From positions 21,425 to 85,424 of the forward strand of contig JACDGE010000004.1 in NCBI GenBank assembly GCA_013815465.1: a stretch of DNA of 64,000 nucleotides, written 5' to 3'. A model generated the notes under the pieces. That model did no database searches, had not been told where the DNA came from, and was given only the letters and a program-made list of their open reading frames with translations. The stretch comes from Alphaproteobacteria bacterium. Its GTDB lineage: Bacteria; Pseudomonadota; Alphaproteobacteria; UBA9655. Of this stretch, positions 9,055 through 54,825 are shown piece after piece (within the stretch, counting starts at the first letter, position 1; the number at the start of each line of letters is the position of its first letter). A program made the translations under genes and the position numbers.

Positions 9055-9112
9055 TTTGTGTCTCCTTATATGCCTATCGGACTAGAAATTACCTATTTAC
9101 AACCCCCAGTGT

Positions 9113-9183
9113 CCTTCCCGCGTAGGCGGGAATCTATCAATATTTCAACCAGTGGTTGGACCCCCGCCTTCGCGGGGATGACA
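9113..9183. repeat. Palindromic repeat, CCCGCG(A/T)AGGCGGG family
   Basis: GTCCTTCCCGCGTAGGCGGGAATCT...GGACCCCCGCCTTCGCGGGGATGAC inverted arms. Confidence 0.8.
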
Positions 9184-38094: not shown

Positions 38095-41000
38095 TTAAAC
38101 TTGATTCTCAACAGTATAAAGCTTACTAGCCTTTTCGTCAATCAAAGGGGTTACCTTTTTTAGAAGATCGTCAGGTAACAGATCCAAACGAGGCAAATGG
38201 GTCCATAGAAGGCCACAAATAATGGGGTGTTGAGGATAAACCTGAGAAAGGGCTACCTGATAAAGAGCCATTTGGCGCACATAGGTCTCGGGAATATCAT
38301 GCAGGCCTTCTGGTACGTGGGTATGGGTTTTGAAATCAATACAGAGGATATGATCGTCCGCCATGACCAGGCGATCAATCTGACCAGAAAGCACAAAATC
38401 CCCCACCGCTCCCACAATAGGAACTTCACCTTGAGAACGAGGCCCGAAGAAATCGGGATAAGCATCAAAAACGCGTGTTACACTTTTAATCATCCCAAGG
38501 GCTATATCTGGCGGGATTTGTTCTCTTTCCAAGTACCTTGAGGCTATGATTTTGCGTTTGTCTTTTGAAACAAGGGCAAGTGTTTCTAATAACTTATGGA
38601 TAAGGACCCCCCGTGGGGCTGCAAAGGCACCAAAATCAGAAGACCTAAATGTACCGTCATCTTTTTCTTCAGAAGGTCGCAACAATTGAGGAGAGATCTC
38701 TGGAAGGGGAGGATTGTTGAGCCAGGTTGGCATCAAGAAAGCGTCTGGTTTTTCGGGTGATAGAAAAGGGGCTTCGCTTTTATGACCCGCAGAAAGGCGC
38801 CACCCTGTCCCAGATAAGTCTCCATCAGCGGGAAAATCAACTTCTTCTCCAACTTTCTCCATTCCTCGGGTGACAAGATCATACCAGGAATCTTCTGCGC
38901 TGCCTTCCCACCCACAAACGTAAAGGGCATCTTCCGCTCGGGTGAGGGCTACATAGAGCAGACGGTTATGCTCTCCTTGCTGTTTCTCCCGGAGTTTTTG
39001 TTTCAATTCTTTTGTGAGAGGGATGTCTTTTGCTGCAGGTGGCAACCACACCAATGAACCTTCATGAAATTCAAAGGGTGGAAGCTCGGAAGGAATTTGA
39101 GTTGTATCAGGAAGAAACACGATAGGAGCTTGCAGTCCCTTCGATCCATGAACTGTCATGATTCGAACCTGATGGCTTTGATCAAGGTCACGCTTAAGTT
39201 CAATAACCTCTTGGGAAATCCAGTAAAGAAAACCCTGGAGAGAGGGGGTTTTGTCCTCCTGAAAATTCACGCAGAGATTTAAAAACTCATCGAGGGAGTC
39301 AAGGCATTCGGGCCCTAGGCGGGTCTGCCATTTTTTCTTACCCCCAAGGGGGCCTAAGATATAACTAAACAAGGAAAATGGCGTCAAAAAATCAACTTTC
39401 GTAAGCAGATCGCTTAAAAGGGATTTTACGTCCGCATAAGATTCATCATTTTGTAAGCGTTTCCATAGAGTGTCCTTGGGAGGAGCATATGGACTTCGTC
39501 CATATAAGTTTAGATCCCGGATCGAGTCCGGGATGACAGCGTCGGGGTTTTGTGTGTTTCTAAGAAGAAATGCATTCAAATCAACAGGCGGTTGTCGTGG
39601 AGTTTCAACACTCTTCGCTGTCATCCCGGACTTGATCTGGGATCTCTTTTGGATGCTGACAAGCTTAAAAAGGTCCTCATCAGATAGGTTACAAAGAGGG
39701 CCCTTCAAAACGGTGGCAAGCGTTAGGTCATCTTCAGGAAGTAATAAAAATTCACCGATTTTTAAAAGGTCCTGAACCGCTAAACTGTCGAGCAGCCAGA
39801 GGCGATCAATACCCGCAACGGGAACCTCATGCTCTTTAAGGACGCGGATGAGCGTATCCACGAAGGCCGTCCTCCGCCGCACCAAAATAAGGATATCACC
39901 AGGTGATGTGAGCCGGACAAGGGGGCCGGAACCAGTAAGCCATCCTTGAATAGTTTTAGCTATGACTTTGGCCAACCGGCGTTGCGGTGAGTCAGGGTGT
40001 CGTTGAGTCAGGGGCGGGCTCCAGGATTCTAAGGACTCCTCCTTTTCCTTCTCGATAAGGGGCCATACCTCGACATGACCGGCTGATTCTTTTCGAAAGG
40101 GCAAATGATAGAGAGGATGAGAGAGCAGAGGACAGCCAGAAAAAACTGCATCCACAACGGCAAGGACTTGCGGCGTGGAACGGAAGGAAACCGTTAGATC
40201 AATGTCCTTCCAGGTTTGTCCGGAATTTCGCGCAAATGTGCTGAGATCTTGTTGCATCTGAGCAAAAACGGCCGGGTCTGCCCCTTGGAAGCTATAGATG
40301 GATTGTTTCCCATCTCCCACAATAAAAAGGGTGCGTTTGCGGGTCTCATCCACAAAATTTGCATAAAACTCTTCTGCAATGGCGCGAATAACTTGCCATT
40401 GGGTAGGACTTGTATCTTGAGCTTCATCAACGAGGATGTGATCCAGACCGCCATCAAGCTTGTACAAAACCCAATGGCAGCCTGGATTCTTTAAAAGAGC
40501 CGCGGATTTGAGAATCAAGTCTTCATAGTCTAAAAGGGATTGCTTCTTTTTAAGGGCTTCATAGGTCTCTAAAAATGCTTGGCCATAGTTTAGGAATGCT
40601 TCTGAGACCGTGGATATTTCCAGCGTGTGGCGGGCAATGAGCCACTGTTCCAGACGCGCACCTTCCTCCTCTAAAAGGTCCTTAAAGAGAGGAGCTTTGA
40701 GGGCCGCTTTTTGGGTCAGCAGGCATGCGCGTTTTTCGCCCTTTTGAGTAAGGAAGAGGGAGAGATAGTCTTCGTATCTTTGAATTTTTTCTTCTTCTGG
40801 GAGGGATAAGAAGTGGGCAAGGGTGTGTCCCCTTATTTGATCAGTGGGGCTGCCCTCTTCAAAAATAAAGAGGTTTGGTTTGAGTTGCTCAACAGGGATT
40901 GGGGTGATGAGGGCGTGGAGGAGGTTATTCTCCACATTCCCAACGGGCGTCATTCCCGCGAAGGCGGGGACCCAGGTGGAATTCATATCTAGGGTTCCTA

Positions 41001-41634
41001 GGTTCCCACCTTCGTGGGAATGACGCCCGTGTTGGGAGAACCGATCCCGCGACTGCAATACAAACCCATTCAGTTCCTCCAAGGTGTGTTCACTGAAACG
41101 GAGAATGAGCTCATGATGACGGGGATCCTCCATCACCCTATGAGACGCCGTTTTTAAAAGTGTTTGCCGCTGCGTATCATTCATCACCTCAAAAAAAGGG
41201 GAAAGGCCCGCTTCCAAGGGAAAGCGTTTGAGAAGGGACTGGCAAAAGCTATGGATGGTTTGAATTTTTAATCCTCCAGGCGTATCCAGCGTCAGTCCAA
41301 AAAGGGTGCGCGCCCGTGTGAGCTTTTCATCAGAAGGAGAAATCCCTTGCAGATTTTCTAAAGATTGGCGCAACTCAGGTTCAGGCAAAATCGTCCACTC
41401 ACCCAAGCGCACCCGCACCCGATTGGCCATCTCAGCAGCAGCCGCCTTCGTAAACGTAAGGCATAAAATACGTGTCGGATCACAACCTTCAAGCAACAGG
41501 TTTAGTACCCGATCAGTCAAAACCTTAGTTTTCCCCGACCCGGCAGAAGCCGCAACCCACACAGAATGATGAGGATGGGCAGCGAGTTGCTGGGATTTTC
41601 CCGCGATTTGGTGAGGCATTACGATTTTCCCCAT
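38095..41634 (-). CDS. addA: Double-strand break repair helicase AddA, carrying palindromic-element-encoded inserts
   Basis: Walker A ASAGSGKTKVLTDRVLNLL, VDEAQDTSPTQW, IMTVHGSKGLQAPIVFLPD, C-terminal nuclease IDFKTH. Confidence 0.95.
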   Translation of the reverse strand: MGKIVMPHQIAGKSQQLAAHPHHSVWVAASAGSGKTKVLTDRVLNLLLEGCDPTRILCLTFTKAAAAEMANRVRVRLGEWTILPEPELRQSLENLQGISPSDEKLTRARTLFGLTLDTPGGLKIQTIHSFCQSLLKRFPLEAGLSPFFEVMNDTQRQTLLKTASHRVMEDPRHHELILRFSEHTLEELNGFVLQSRDRFSQHGRHSHEGGNLGTLDMNSTWVPAFAGMTPVGNVENNLLHALITPIPVEQLKPNLFIFEEGSPTDQIRGHTLAHFLSLPEEEKIQRYEDYLSLFLTQKGEKRACLLTQKAALKAPLFKDLLEEEGARLEQWLIARHTLEISTVSEAFLNYGQAFLETYEALKKKQSLLDYEDLILKSAALLKNPGCHWVLYKLDGGLDHILVDEAQDTSPTQWQVIRAIAEEFYANFVDETRKRTLFIVGDGKQSIYSFQGADPAVFAQMQQDLSTFARNSGQTWKDIDLTVSFRSTPQVLAVVDAVFSGCPLLSHPLYHLPFRKESAGHVEVWPLIEKEKEESLESWSPPLTQRHPDSPQRRLAKVIAKTIQGWLTGSGPLVRLTSPGDILILVRRRTAFVDTLIRVLKEHEVPVAGIDRLWLLDSLAVQDLLKIGEFLLLPEDDLTLATVLKGPLCNLSDEDLFKLVSIQKRSQIKSGMTAKSVETPRQPPVDLNAFLLRNTQNPDAVIPDSIRDLNLYGRSPYAPPKDTLWKRLQNDESYADVKSLLSDLLTKVDFLTPFSLFSYILGPLGGKKKWQTRLGPECLDSLDEFLNLCVNFQEDKTPSLQGFLYWISQEVIELKRDLDQSHQVRIMTVHGSKGLQAPIVFLPDTTQIPSELPPFEFHEGSLVWLPPAAKDIPLTKELKQKLREKQQGEHNRLLYVALTRAEDALYVCGWEGSAEDSWYDLVTRGMEKVGEEVDFPADGDLSGTGWRLSAGHKSEAPFLSPEKPDAFLMPTWLNNPPLPEISPQLLRPSEEKDDGTFRSSDFGAFAAPRGVLIHKLLETLALVSKDKRKIIASRYLEREQIPPDIALGMIKSVTRVFDAYPDFFGPRSQGEVPIVGAVGDFVLSGQIDRLVMADDHILCIDFKTHTHVPEGLHDIPETYVRQMALYQVALSQVYPQHPIICGLLWTHLPRLDLLPDDLLKKVTPLIDEKASKLYTVENQV
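39488..39645. repeat. Palindromic element (AGATCCCGGATC...GGGATGACAGCG family) within addA
   Basis: TAGATCCCGGATCGAGTCCGGGATGACAGCG and inverted CGCTGTCATCCCGGACTTGATCTGGGATCTC, preceded by small palindrome ATATGGACTTCGTCCATAT. Confidence 0.88.
40938..41037. repeat. Palindromic element (CCCGCGAAGGCGGG family) within addA
   Basis: CCCAACGGGCGTCATTCCCGCGAAGGCGGGGACCCAGG ... CCTAGGTTCCCACCTTCGTGGGAATGACGCCCGTGTTGGG. Confidence 0.92.
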
Positions 41635-44597
41635 TCTTGAAGACGGGCGAGTTGCTCGTAATCATTGTATCGCAAGGCCTTACTGGGCAGAGGGCGAGCT
41701 GGATAGGGGATTCGTTCATCCTCAAACAAGATCACCATGCGTTTTAACCCTTCAAGGGCTTTGACGGACCGTTCATGAGGGTCGCCGGAAAGAGTACGCA
41801 CAATACCTCCTTCACGATCACCTTTCAACCACCAAAACTGTAGGCTTTCAATGGCGGTGGTCGTGATGCCATCAAACCCTTTCGCCAAGGCAATCGCCCC
41901 CTCCAAAGGAAGTTGGGGAGAAAAACCAAGGGTCACATCCTGCTCTGAGGGTGGCATGCCCGTTTTATAATCCAGAATCCGCAGACGACCATCAGGCAGC
42001 AGATCTATCCGATCAGCCTTTGCCGTACACTCAAAGGGACCTTGGGGCGTGTTAAAGGTTAGGCGGCCTTTGACCTCCGTAAAGGTTTGGGTGCCAGAAA
42101 GCCGAGTCGCTTTCTCGTGGGTAATGAACCACTGGGCTAAATGCGTAAAGCGCGGCCACCAGAAAAGTTTGACGGAAGAGCTTTCTTCAAAGGGGTCAAA
42201 AAGGGTTTTGCCAATAAATAGAAGGATTTCCAGGCTATCCTTATGATGAGGATCCTTACAAAGTTTAAAGAATTCTTCAAAAATCTTATGAAGAAGGGTG
42301 CCGCGATCCGCAGGGCCTACTTCCGCATTCAGAGGATCAAGGGGCGCCAGTCCAAGAATTGTTCGTGCATAAAGGGCATAGGGATCCCGCATCCAGGTTT
42401 CAATTTGGGTGACGGAAAGACGTCGTGGACGCAATGAAGCAGGCGGAGAAGGAAGAGGCGGACTTGGGGTTTTGTACGCATCTGGTTGATCGAGGTGTTT
42501 GACCCACTCCAGCACCCTCGGCTCTTCGGGGAATGCAAGGTTCCAGGACTTTAAGTACACATCTAACCGTTCAAGCCAGCGGCACGCGATGGTGGGGGTC
42601 CCATCAATCTTTAAGGAGCGGGTCAAATAGACCTTGGGACGAGCGAAGGCTTGACCAAAGTCATGGGCAGAAAGCCCAATCCGTCTTTCAAGGGGAGGAA
42701 AGCCCAGCTCTTTCCGCATGGGACGATTGAGCCAAGGATCCAGACCGATTTCCGGTGGCCAATTGCCCTCATTCAGGCCCCCTAGAATCATGACGTCCGC
42801 GTGAAAAAGACGCGCTTCGATTGTGCCGAGGATGGCAAGGCGGGGATGCCGTTGAGGATGGAAGCGAAGTTTTTGGCCGCCCATAAATTCTTTAAAAACA
42901 GATGCATATTCTTTTAAAGTGAGGGCAGGAAATTCGTATGTAGCTTTTTTTAGGTCGTTAAAGAAAGTTTTGAGCGCCTCCCCCTTCACGCCCTTCCAGA
43001 GTTGACAAGCTCCTTTGTCATCTCTAGAGAGAGCTTCAGCCACCGTAACGTGCAGAGACAAGAGGTGTTCTAAGGGCGCTTTATTTATTTCTGTGAAGGG
43101 GAAAAAGAGATCTTGAAATGTTTTGAGCCAGGGGGTGTTATCCTCCCGACGATCTCCCCCACTAGCGTCATCCCGGAATTTAGAAAATCTTTGCGTTAGC
43201 TTAGCTTTTCTTAATGTCCGGGACTCAGGAGTATTTAAATCAATATTTTCCTGGGTCCCCACCTTCGCGGGGATGACGCTAGTTGGGTGTGCGCGAGACG
43301 TCCCCCGCAAAACACGTTTCTCAAACCGACGAACCTTACTCCGCGAGGTCAAATGGCACAGAGGATGCTTCAGTAAAGATAAGAGAGCGATTTGGTCTTG
43401 AGGATTCGCCGCAAACTCCACACACAGATTAAGGAAAACACCAGGGGGGGTTTGATTCAGAGGCTCACCCGCTGAACTGTCGATGTCAATCGCCCATCGT
43501 TTGAGCTCTTCCCTCACCCGCTCCGTGAGTTTTAAATCGGACGTTATAAGAGCAATGCGTTGATGGGGAATTTCAAGCTGTTGACGAAGTAAAATAGAAA
43601 TCGCAAGGGCCTCTTCTTGGGGAGAAGGACACAAAACCCGGTACACCCCTTCAAGAGCTTTTTCAGGCGAAGGTCCCGTCGTTGAAAAGGAAGGCTTCAA
43701 CGATTGGGCAAAAAGATGCACACGTTCAGGACATTGGGCTCTCTGCCCCTGCAACCCACCCCAGAGCTGAATCTCCGACGGCAGTAGATTCATTTTCTGC
43801 AAAAATTGGGTGGGAGCATATTGAGGATGACACGGAGAAAGGGATCTAACTTCTTCCTTGGTTAAGGTCGTATCCAGGCCTGGTAAAATGATGGCCCCTT
43901 GGGGCATGTTCGCGATGGCCTGAAGGAGCGTACAGGTGGCCGGCATGGTTCCTGTAGATCCCGCTGCCATTATGGGGTGAGAAGGTGGCGATTTTTCCCA
44001 ACGCCCTATGATTTTCTGCACCAGCTGATGGTGGCGGGTGTGAGGCTCGATCACCCCTTTTTCTTCTAAAATTTTTGGCCAGTGGGTTGTAATGATCTCA
44101 AGAAAATCGAGAGTGAGCTGCCAGTGACTTGCAAATTCAGAAGGCACAAGATGCAACAATCCTTCCCACGGCACATTTTCAATCACCGCTTGATCCATCA
44201 AGCTCACAAGGCTTTTCGCAAGCTTAAGGGAAAGGGCGGGGGTGGAGGGAACGCCCGATTTTTCCGCATATTCTTCAATAAGCTTCGTCAAGAGGCTCAG
44301 ACGGTTAAAAGGAGGCAAAAGAGGAGGTAATCCATCCTCATCTATGGGAGAGTGTATGAACGCTTCATCCTCATCCAAATCCCCCAGAGGGGTCAACTTA
44401 GGAAGGAGAAAACATCGCGTCTTCTCATGACGCAACATGGCTCTCCGCACTTCAATACAGGCGCGCCGTGTAGGCAGAAACACTTCCATTTGACTGAGGG
44501 CAAAGGGATCTTTTTTGCTCAGCTGCAGGAGGCCGATGGCAAAACTTTCTAAGAATGAATACTCGGAGGGGATGTTATAAACGTTTGGCATTTCCAT
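41619..44597 (-). CDS. addB: Double-strand break repair nuclease AddB, with palindromic-element insert
   Basis: AddB layout: ...LPTRRACIEVRRAM, GTIEARLFHADVMILGGLNEGNWPP, C-terminal LRILDYKTGMPPS nuclease motif; overlaps addA start. Confidence 0.93.
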   Translation of the reverse strand: MEMPNVYNIPSEYSFLESFAIGLLQLSKKDPFALSQMEVFLPTRRACIEVRRAMLRHEKTRCFLLPKLTPLGDLDEDEAFIHSPIDEDGLPPLLPPFNRLSLLTKLIEEYAEKSGVPSTPALSLKLAKSLVSLMDQAVIENVPWEGLLHLVPSEFASHWQLTLDFLEIITTHWPKILEEKGVIEPHTRHHQLVQKIIGRWEKSPPSHPIMAAGSTGTMPATCTLLQAIANMPQGAIILPGLDTTLTKEEVRSLSPCHPQYAPTQFLQKMNLLPSEIQLWGGLQGQRAQCPERVHLFAQSLKPSFSTTGPSPEKALEGVYRVLCPSPQEEALAISILLRQQLEIPHQRIALITSDLKLTERVREELKRWAIDIDSSAGEPLNQTPPGVFLNLCVEFAANPQDQIALLSLLKHPLCHLTSRSKVRRFEKRVLRGTSRAHPTSVIPAKVGTQENIDLNTPESRTLRKAKLTQRFSKFRDDASGGDRREDNTPWLKTFQDLFFPFTEINKAPLEHLLSLHVTVAEALSRDDKGACQLWKGVKGEALKTFFNDLKKATYEFPALTLKEYASVFKEFMGGQKLRFHPQRHPRLAILGTIEARLFHADVMILGGLNEGNWPPEIGLDPWLNRPMRKELGFPPLERRIGLSAHDFGQAFARPKVYLTRSLKIDGTPTIACRWLERLDVYLKSWNLAFPEEPRVLEWVKHLDQPDAYKTPSPPLPSPPASLRPRRLSVTQIETWMRDPYALYARTILGLAPLDPLNAEVGPADRGTLLHKIFEEFFKLCKDPHHKDSLEILLFIGKTLFDPFEESSSVKLFWWPRFTHLAQWFITHEKATRLSGTQTFTEVKGRLTFNTPQGPFECTAKADRIDLLPDGRLRILDYKTGMPPSEQDVTLGFSPQLPLEGAIALAKGFDGITTTAIESLQFWWLKGDREGGIVRTLSGDPHERSVKALEGLKRMVILFEDERIPYPARPLPSKALRYNDYEQLARLQEWGKS
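43156..43287. repeat. Composite palindromic element within addB
   Basis: CCCCCACTAGCGTCATCCC ... CCTGGGTCCCCACCTTCGCGGGGATGACGCTAGTTGGG with an internal CCCGGAATTTAGAAAA...TTTTCTTAATGTCCGGG inverted repeat. Confidence 0.85.
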
Positions 44598-54641: not shown

Positions 54642-54825
54642 CACCCCCACGGGCGTCATCCCCGCGAAGGCGGGGACCCAGGAAATTATTGACATAAAAG
54701 ATATTTTGAAAAGAGAGATAAACAACAAGCAGATAGTACAAATAGAAAAATCTATCCTTAACCTATACCAATACCTGTGCATTACCTGGGTCCCCGCCTT
54801 CGCGGGGATGACGCTCGTGGGGGTG
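54642..54825. repeat. 184-bp MITE-like element with 41-bp TIRs
   Basis: CACCCCCACGGGCGTCATCCCCGCGAAGGCGGGGACCCAGG (54642..54682) vs inverted CCTGGGTCCCCGCCTTCGCGGGGATGACGCTCGTGGGGGTG (54785..54825), 40/41 match. Confidence 0.95.

Follow-up and report, generated by a model that had tools for sequence, protein, structure and literature searches.

A 98-bp palindrome lies in frame inside the addA gene of this alphaproteobacterium, and its sequence features identify it as a dimer of CGTC-1 REPs and not as a new class of repeat. The explanation that, taken as a whole, we consider very probable is that one copy of this non-autonomous, head-to-head element landed in addA, that the reading frame was kept and that the resulting loop was tolerated. 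The element is a well-supported further instance of a known phenomenon and is one of several inserts that form an unusually distinct cluster in the repair proteins of one genus; recurrent insertion into the same loop in repair proteins of related species is the most interesting part.

The palindrome in addA is a CGTC-1 REP dimer

The addA gene (38095–41634, minus strand) is an intact open reading frame (ORF) of 1179 aa that carries two palindromic inserts and encodes a helicase–nuclease with UvrD-helicase, UvrD_C and C-terminal PDDEXK_1 nuclease (PD-(D/E)XK) domains by Pfam; its nearest solved relative by PDB match is AddA 3u44. An earlier note on the window (the whole 64,000-nt stretch analysed here) had described one of these inserts as a palindrome of about 100 bp that adds about 33 aa without breaking the frame. 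We confirmed this description: the element (CCCAAC...GTTGGG, 40939–41036; palindromes and spacers are given without strand) is the inverted repeat CCCAACGGGCGTCATT...AATGACGCCCGTGTTGGG and codes for approximately residues 200–232 of an ORF that remains open throughout. The core arms, 34 nt each, show 88% complementarity, and the element as single-stranded DNA has a folding energy of −37.4 kcal/mol, compared with a mean of −15.9 for shuffled sequences (z = −7.7, no shuffle as good). The core consists of two CGTC-1 REP monomers, CGTCATTCCCGCGAAGGCGGGGACCCA on the plus strand (40948–40974) and CGTCATTCCCACGAAGGTGGGAACCTA on the minus strand (40999–41025), separated by a spacer (40975–40998), an architecture known as a tag-outside (HH) dimer. 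The arm core has seven matches in the window where 0.02 are expected, and the two other sites at which the earlier note had placed it are both genuine CGTC-1 HH dimers, one outside any accepted gene (9111–9182) and one (54655–54812) crossed by a 251-aa frame that is probably not a gene.

Across the whole genome the arm core matched 105 times and a reversed-pattern control not once; congeners carry 0–72 matches per genome. The consensus from 107 monomers in ~1.03 Mb of this organism's contigs, YGTCATYCCCGCGAAGGCGGGRAYCCA, comprises a CGTC/TGTC tag, an 8-bp stem, a 4-nt loop and a CCA tail. The unpaired terminal tag begins with C in 78 and T in 28 of the 107 monomers, followed by a nearly invariant GTC; the stem (ATYCCCGC/GCGGGRAY) begins with AT and covaries at pair 7/22 (T-A in 49, C-G in 49); the loop is GAAG in 67; and the tail bases are C in 99, C in 88 and A in 98. 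Among clusters containing both orientations, 33 were '+-' (HH) and one was '-+'. Density estimates from the ~1.08 Mb of contigs read are biased, as these contigs were picked for carrying copies.

CGTC-1 REPs were described by Di Nocera, De Gregorio and Rocco in 2013 from all alphaproteobacterial orders (PMC3733652), and the repeats here share the published tag, the 8-bp stem starting with AT, the 4-nt loop and the CCA tail, as well as the predominance of HH over rare tail-to-tail (TT) dimers, the lack of a dedicated transposase and the location of some copies in ORFs. Because every published structural feature is present, the suggestion in the earlier note of a separate, unnamed family is unsupported. 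Its comparison with Rickettsia palindromic elements (RPEs), by contrast, is upheld, as Rickettsia conorii RPE-4 and RPE-6 have been published as CGTC REPs (PMC3733652).

Unlike the published repeats, most copies here have CCCC(n)...(n)GGGG outer arms and an ACCCAGG tail. A C-rich CCCC...RGY|GTC stretch before the tag, with its mirror image after the second tag, is conserved in most copies of this genome, which makes the unit longer than the published 27 bp; the outer borders drawn in the earlier note match these arms. They resemble published CGTC dimers lying within outer palindromes. Except near the tag, the outer arms are barely more complementary within than between elements; they may belong to the element itself or reflect a preference for certain targets.

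Several further CGTC families coexist in the same genome. Minimal single hairpins with outer arms and no spacer, possibly collapsed dimers, occur at G000:C13:1903-1928 and C79:122068-122093 (G000 being this organism's genome). A longer repeat, ttctttacaaacgcaccaaaggtgc..., is present in six near-identical copies that each contain one CGTC-1 monomer (G000:C149:5316, C149:48990, C79:16511, C137:56730, C101:67 and C47:15593). Most CGTC dimers of genome G011 measure 84 bp and lie within a larger inverted repeat, TATACTCATCGGACGTGAAGATACC ... GGTATCTTCACGTCCGATGAGTATA, that is probably a MITE (L276, L281, L283 and other loci). Searches against Rfam returned only vertebrate and plant microRNA models far below their gathering scores, which we dismissed as generic hairpin matches.

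A probable insertion into AddA kept the reading frame in a predicted loop

We compared AddA with 92 orthologs, of which 13 belong to the same order and 79 to other Alphaproteobacteria. None carries the REP-encoded residues, so the refuting condition named in the earlier note was not observed; read from the alignment, however, the insertion is not clean. The element codes for ~33 residues, yet the region spans 38 residues here against ~21 in congeners, so that about 15 native residues (~45 bp) would have been lost, for a net gain of about 17. Across Alphaproteobacteria this region ranges from 14 to 66 residues, with 4 of 92 orthologs as long as ours, so the case for insertion is built on repeat identity and the congeners; length by itself would not prove it. 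The comparison was made between proteins, and its nearest members are congeners, whose AddA is only ~60–66% identical to ours over the full length.

Two properties would explain how addA survived: five of the six frames through the CGTC-1 consensus are free of stops, the sixth being closed by the TGA in ATGACG, and the net length change preserved the frame. The AlphaFold model of AddA (mean pLDDT 81) falls below 50 at residues 205–231 and 662–714, which correspond to the two inserts, placing the element in a predicted disordered loop. In the weaker AddB model (mean pLDDT 74, 15 sequences), low-confidence segments between residues 431 and 487 cover an insert described below, alongside other low stretches. 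Residues that the alignment lacks are expected to score low in any case, so these models support, and do not prove, disorder.

In the sequence of events that we favour, a head-to-head CGTC-1 REP pair with extended CCCC/GGGG arms would have multiplied here to roughly 100 arm copies. One copy would then have entered addA with the loss of ~45 bp at the site, the net length change leaving the gene in frame to encode ~33 foreign residues as a disordered surface loop, and selection would have kept the insert because AddA tolerates the loop. The dimer is presumably the unit that moves, although spacers differ between copies and movement of the whole dimer is therefore not proven; the site was probably filled by insertion with deletion, and AddA, whose motifs are intact, probably still works.

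Palindromic inserts recur in repair proteins of the genus

The addBA operon contains three palindromic inserts, a difference from the published CGTC-1 REPs; two of them (39512–39645 and 43166–43278) are unmentioned in the earlier note. The second addA insert (39512–39645) is a tag-inside (TT) dimer with a 5-nt loop that belongs to a different CGTC family (TGTCATCCCGGACTTGATCCGGGAT type) and is unrelated to the first palindrome. Its region spans 63 residues compared with 6–15 in all 92 orthologs, none of which has the encoded peptide, and this insert is much cleaner. The upstream partner addB (41619–44597, minus strand, 992 aa), recognized by its ORF, a PDDEXK_1 domain and congener alignments, carries an HH heterodimer (43166–43278) composed of a long-loop CGTC hairpin (43166–43229) and a CGTC-1 REP (43252–43278, minus strand).

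The same AddB loop holds separate palindromes in three species: the heterodimer here, a CGTC-1 homodimer in G016 and a GTCATTGCGAGG-type element in G005 (L321, L324). None was found in this loop in the other congeners examined, including G013, which the AddA tree places as sister to G016 (support 97/95); from that tree we used only the G016–G013 and G011–G006 pairings, its row for G005 being wrong (long branch). The lack of an insert in G013 makes separate origins the likelier reading, and replacement of an insert inherited from a common ancestor the less probable one. In MutL, the interdomain linker contains different CGTC palindromes at different places in this genome (G000:C137:42343-42418, L326) and in G016 (L327).

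Other genes of this genome with inserts are ampD (twice), a gene for a GltD-like oxidoreductase and the ccmF/ccmH junction. The AmpD-like amidase (302 aa) has CGTC inserts at two places, close to its N terminus and ahead of the peptidoglycan-binding domain (G000:C107:16524-17196). At the ccmF–ccmH junction a CGTC dimer (G000:C107:1816-1893) lies where both genes read as one 778-aa frame.

The chance that at least 2 of the 7 inserts other than the first addA palindrome would fall in addAB is ~0.001, a post hoc value that assumes uniform insertion and comes from selected contigs. REPs have been reported inside excision-repair, polymerase and recBCD genes (PMC3733652), and RPEs of different kinds have been described close to matching sites of orthologs, a RecB-family exonuclease among them (PMC3767692). 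That loops and linkers tolerate inserts is enough to account for the repair-gene pattern, with no targeting involved. We consider it very unlikely that CGTC palindromes preferentially enter, or are preferentially kept in, AddAB and MutL, whether by target preference or because slightly altered AddAB or MutL helps hairpins to persist; if true, this would account for the independent AddB-loop inserts in three species and the MutL-linker inserts in two.

Alternative origins and mobilization of the repeats

We looked for the machinery that moves the repeats. Y1 (IS200/RAYT-type) transposases are lacking in the near-complete, copy-rich genomes G011 (72 copies) and G016 (68 copies); G004, with 35 copies, is little informative at 63% completeness. 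The single Y1 transposase fragment of our genome is not beside any copy, and copy number does not correlate with Y1 count across genomes (rho = −0.15, P = 0.56). Between facing arms 0.4–3.5 kb apart, where transposase classes other than Y1 were sought as ORFs, we found no transposase in ~1.08 Mb of this organism's contigs (about half of the genome); the genes there were nuoE, nuoD, tsaD and eno. Nor was there a consistent target-site duplication signal in 31 dimers of this genome, 14 of G016 and 10 of G011. These results agree with the published statement that CGTC REPs have no dedicated transposase (PMC3733652).

They also bear on two other accounts of the element. It could be a MITE of a DDE-type insertion sequence, with terminal inverted repeats that start with CCCC and contain the REP core. 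The conservation of the CCCC/GGGG arms beyond that core speaks for this, as do the many CGTC dimers of G011 that lie within a longer TATACTCAT...ATGAGTATA palindrome. With no target-site duplication signal in the dimers scanned and no transposase between facing arms in the half of the genome read, we consider this origin unlikely. The G011 dimers sit in a different, longer TIR element, so that comparing them with the near-sister G006 would not inform the addA copy. Mobilization as a REPIN by a RAYT or other IS200/IS605-type transposase suits the architecture, in that REPINs also consist of two inverted REPs with a short, diverse spacer that can form one long hairpin (PMC8049555), but the tag is CGTC instead of GTAG and no association with RAYTs emerged from the Y1 survey, and we regard this origin as quite unlikely.

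The kinship with RPEs raises the question of descent. Like RPE-4, RPE-6 and RPE-7, the element is a palindrome in the range of ~100–150 bp that expands a protein while keeping the frame, here within a putatively functional AddA, and it holds the ATGAC motif reported as typical of these three families (PMC3767692); it also belongs to the same superfamily. That it is a true RPE-4, -6 or -7 acquired from Rickettsiales by descent or transfer is nevertheless highly improbable. The host is neither Rickettsia nor Wolbachia and its lineage has no tie to Rickettsia (the congener G006 is the unclassified alphaproteobacterial MAG Gw_Bodden_bin_46), the relationship to RPEs is drawn from the motif and the published equation and not from direct sequence comparison, and the presence of CGTC-1 elements in all alphaproteobacterial orders makes transfer unnecessary.

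These observations take protein-coding palindromes beyond Rickettsia into a further, uncultured genus of Alphaproteobacteria, in which copy number swings from 0 to >100 between species. They also provide several natural before-and-after comparisons, in which a given repair protein occurs both with an insert and free of one, and the repeated, separate insertion into the AddB loop and the MutL linker opens to testing the long-standing remark that repair genes are favoured by REPs.
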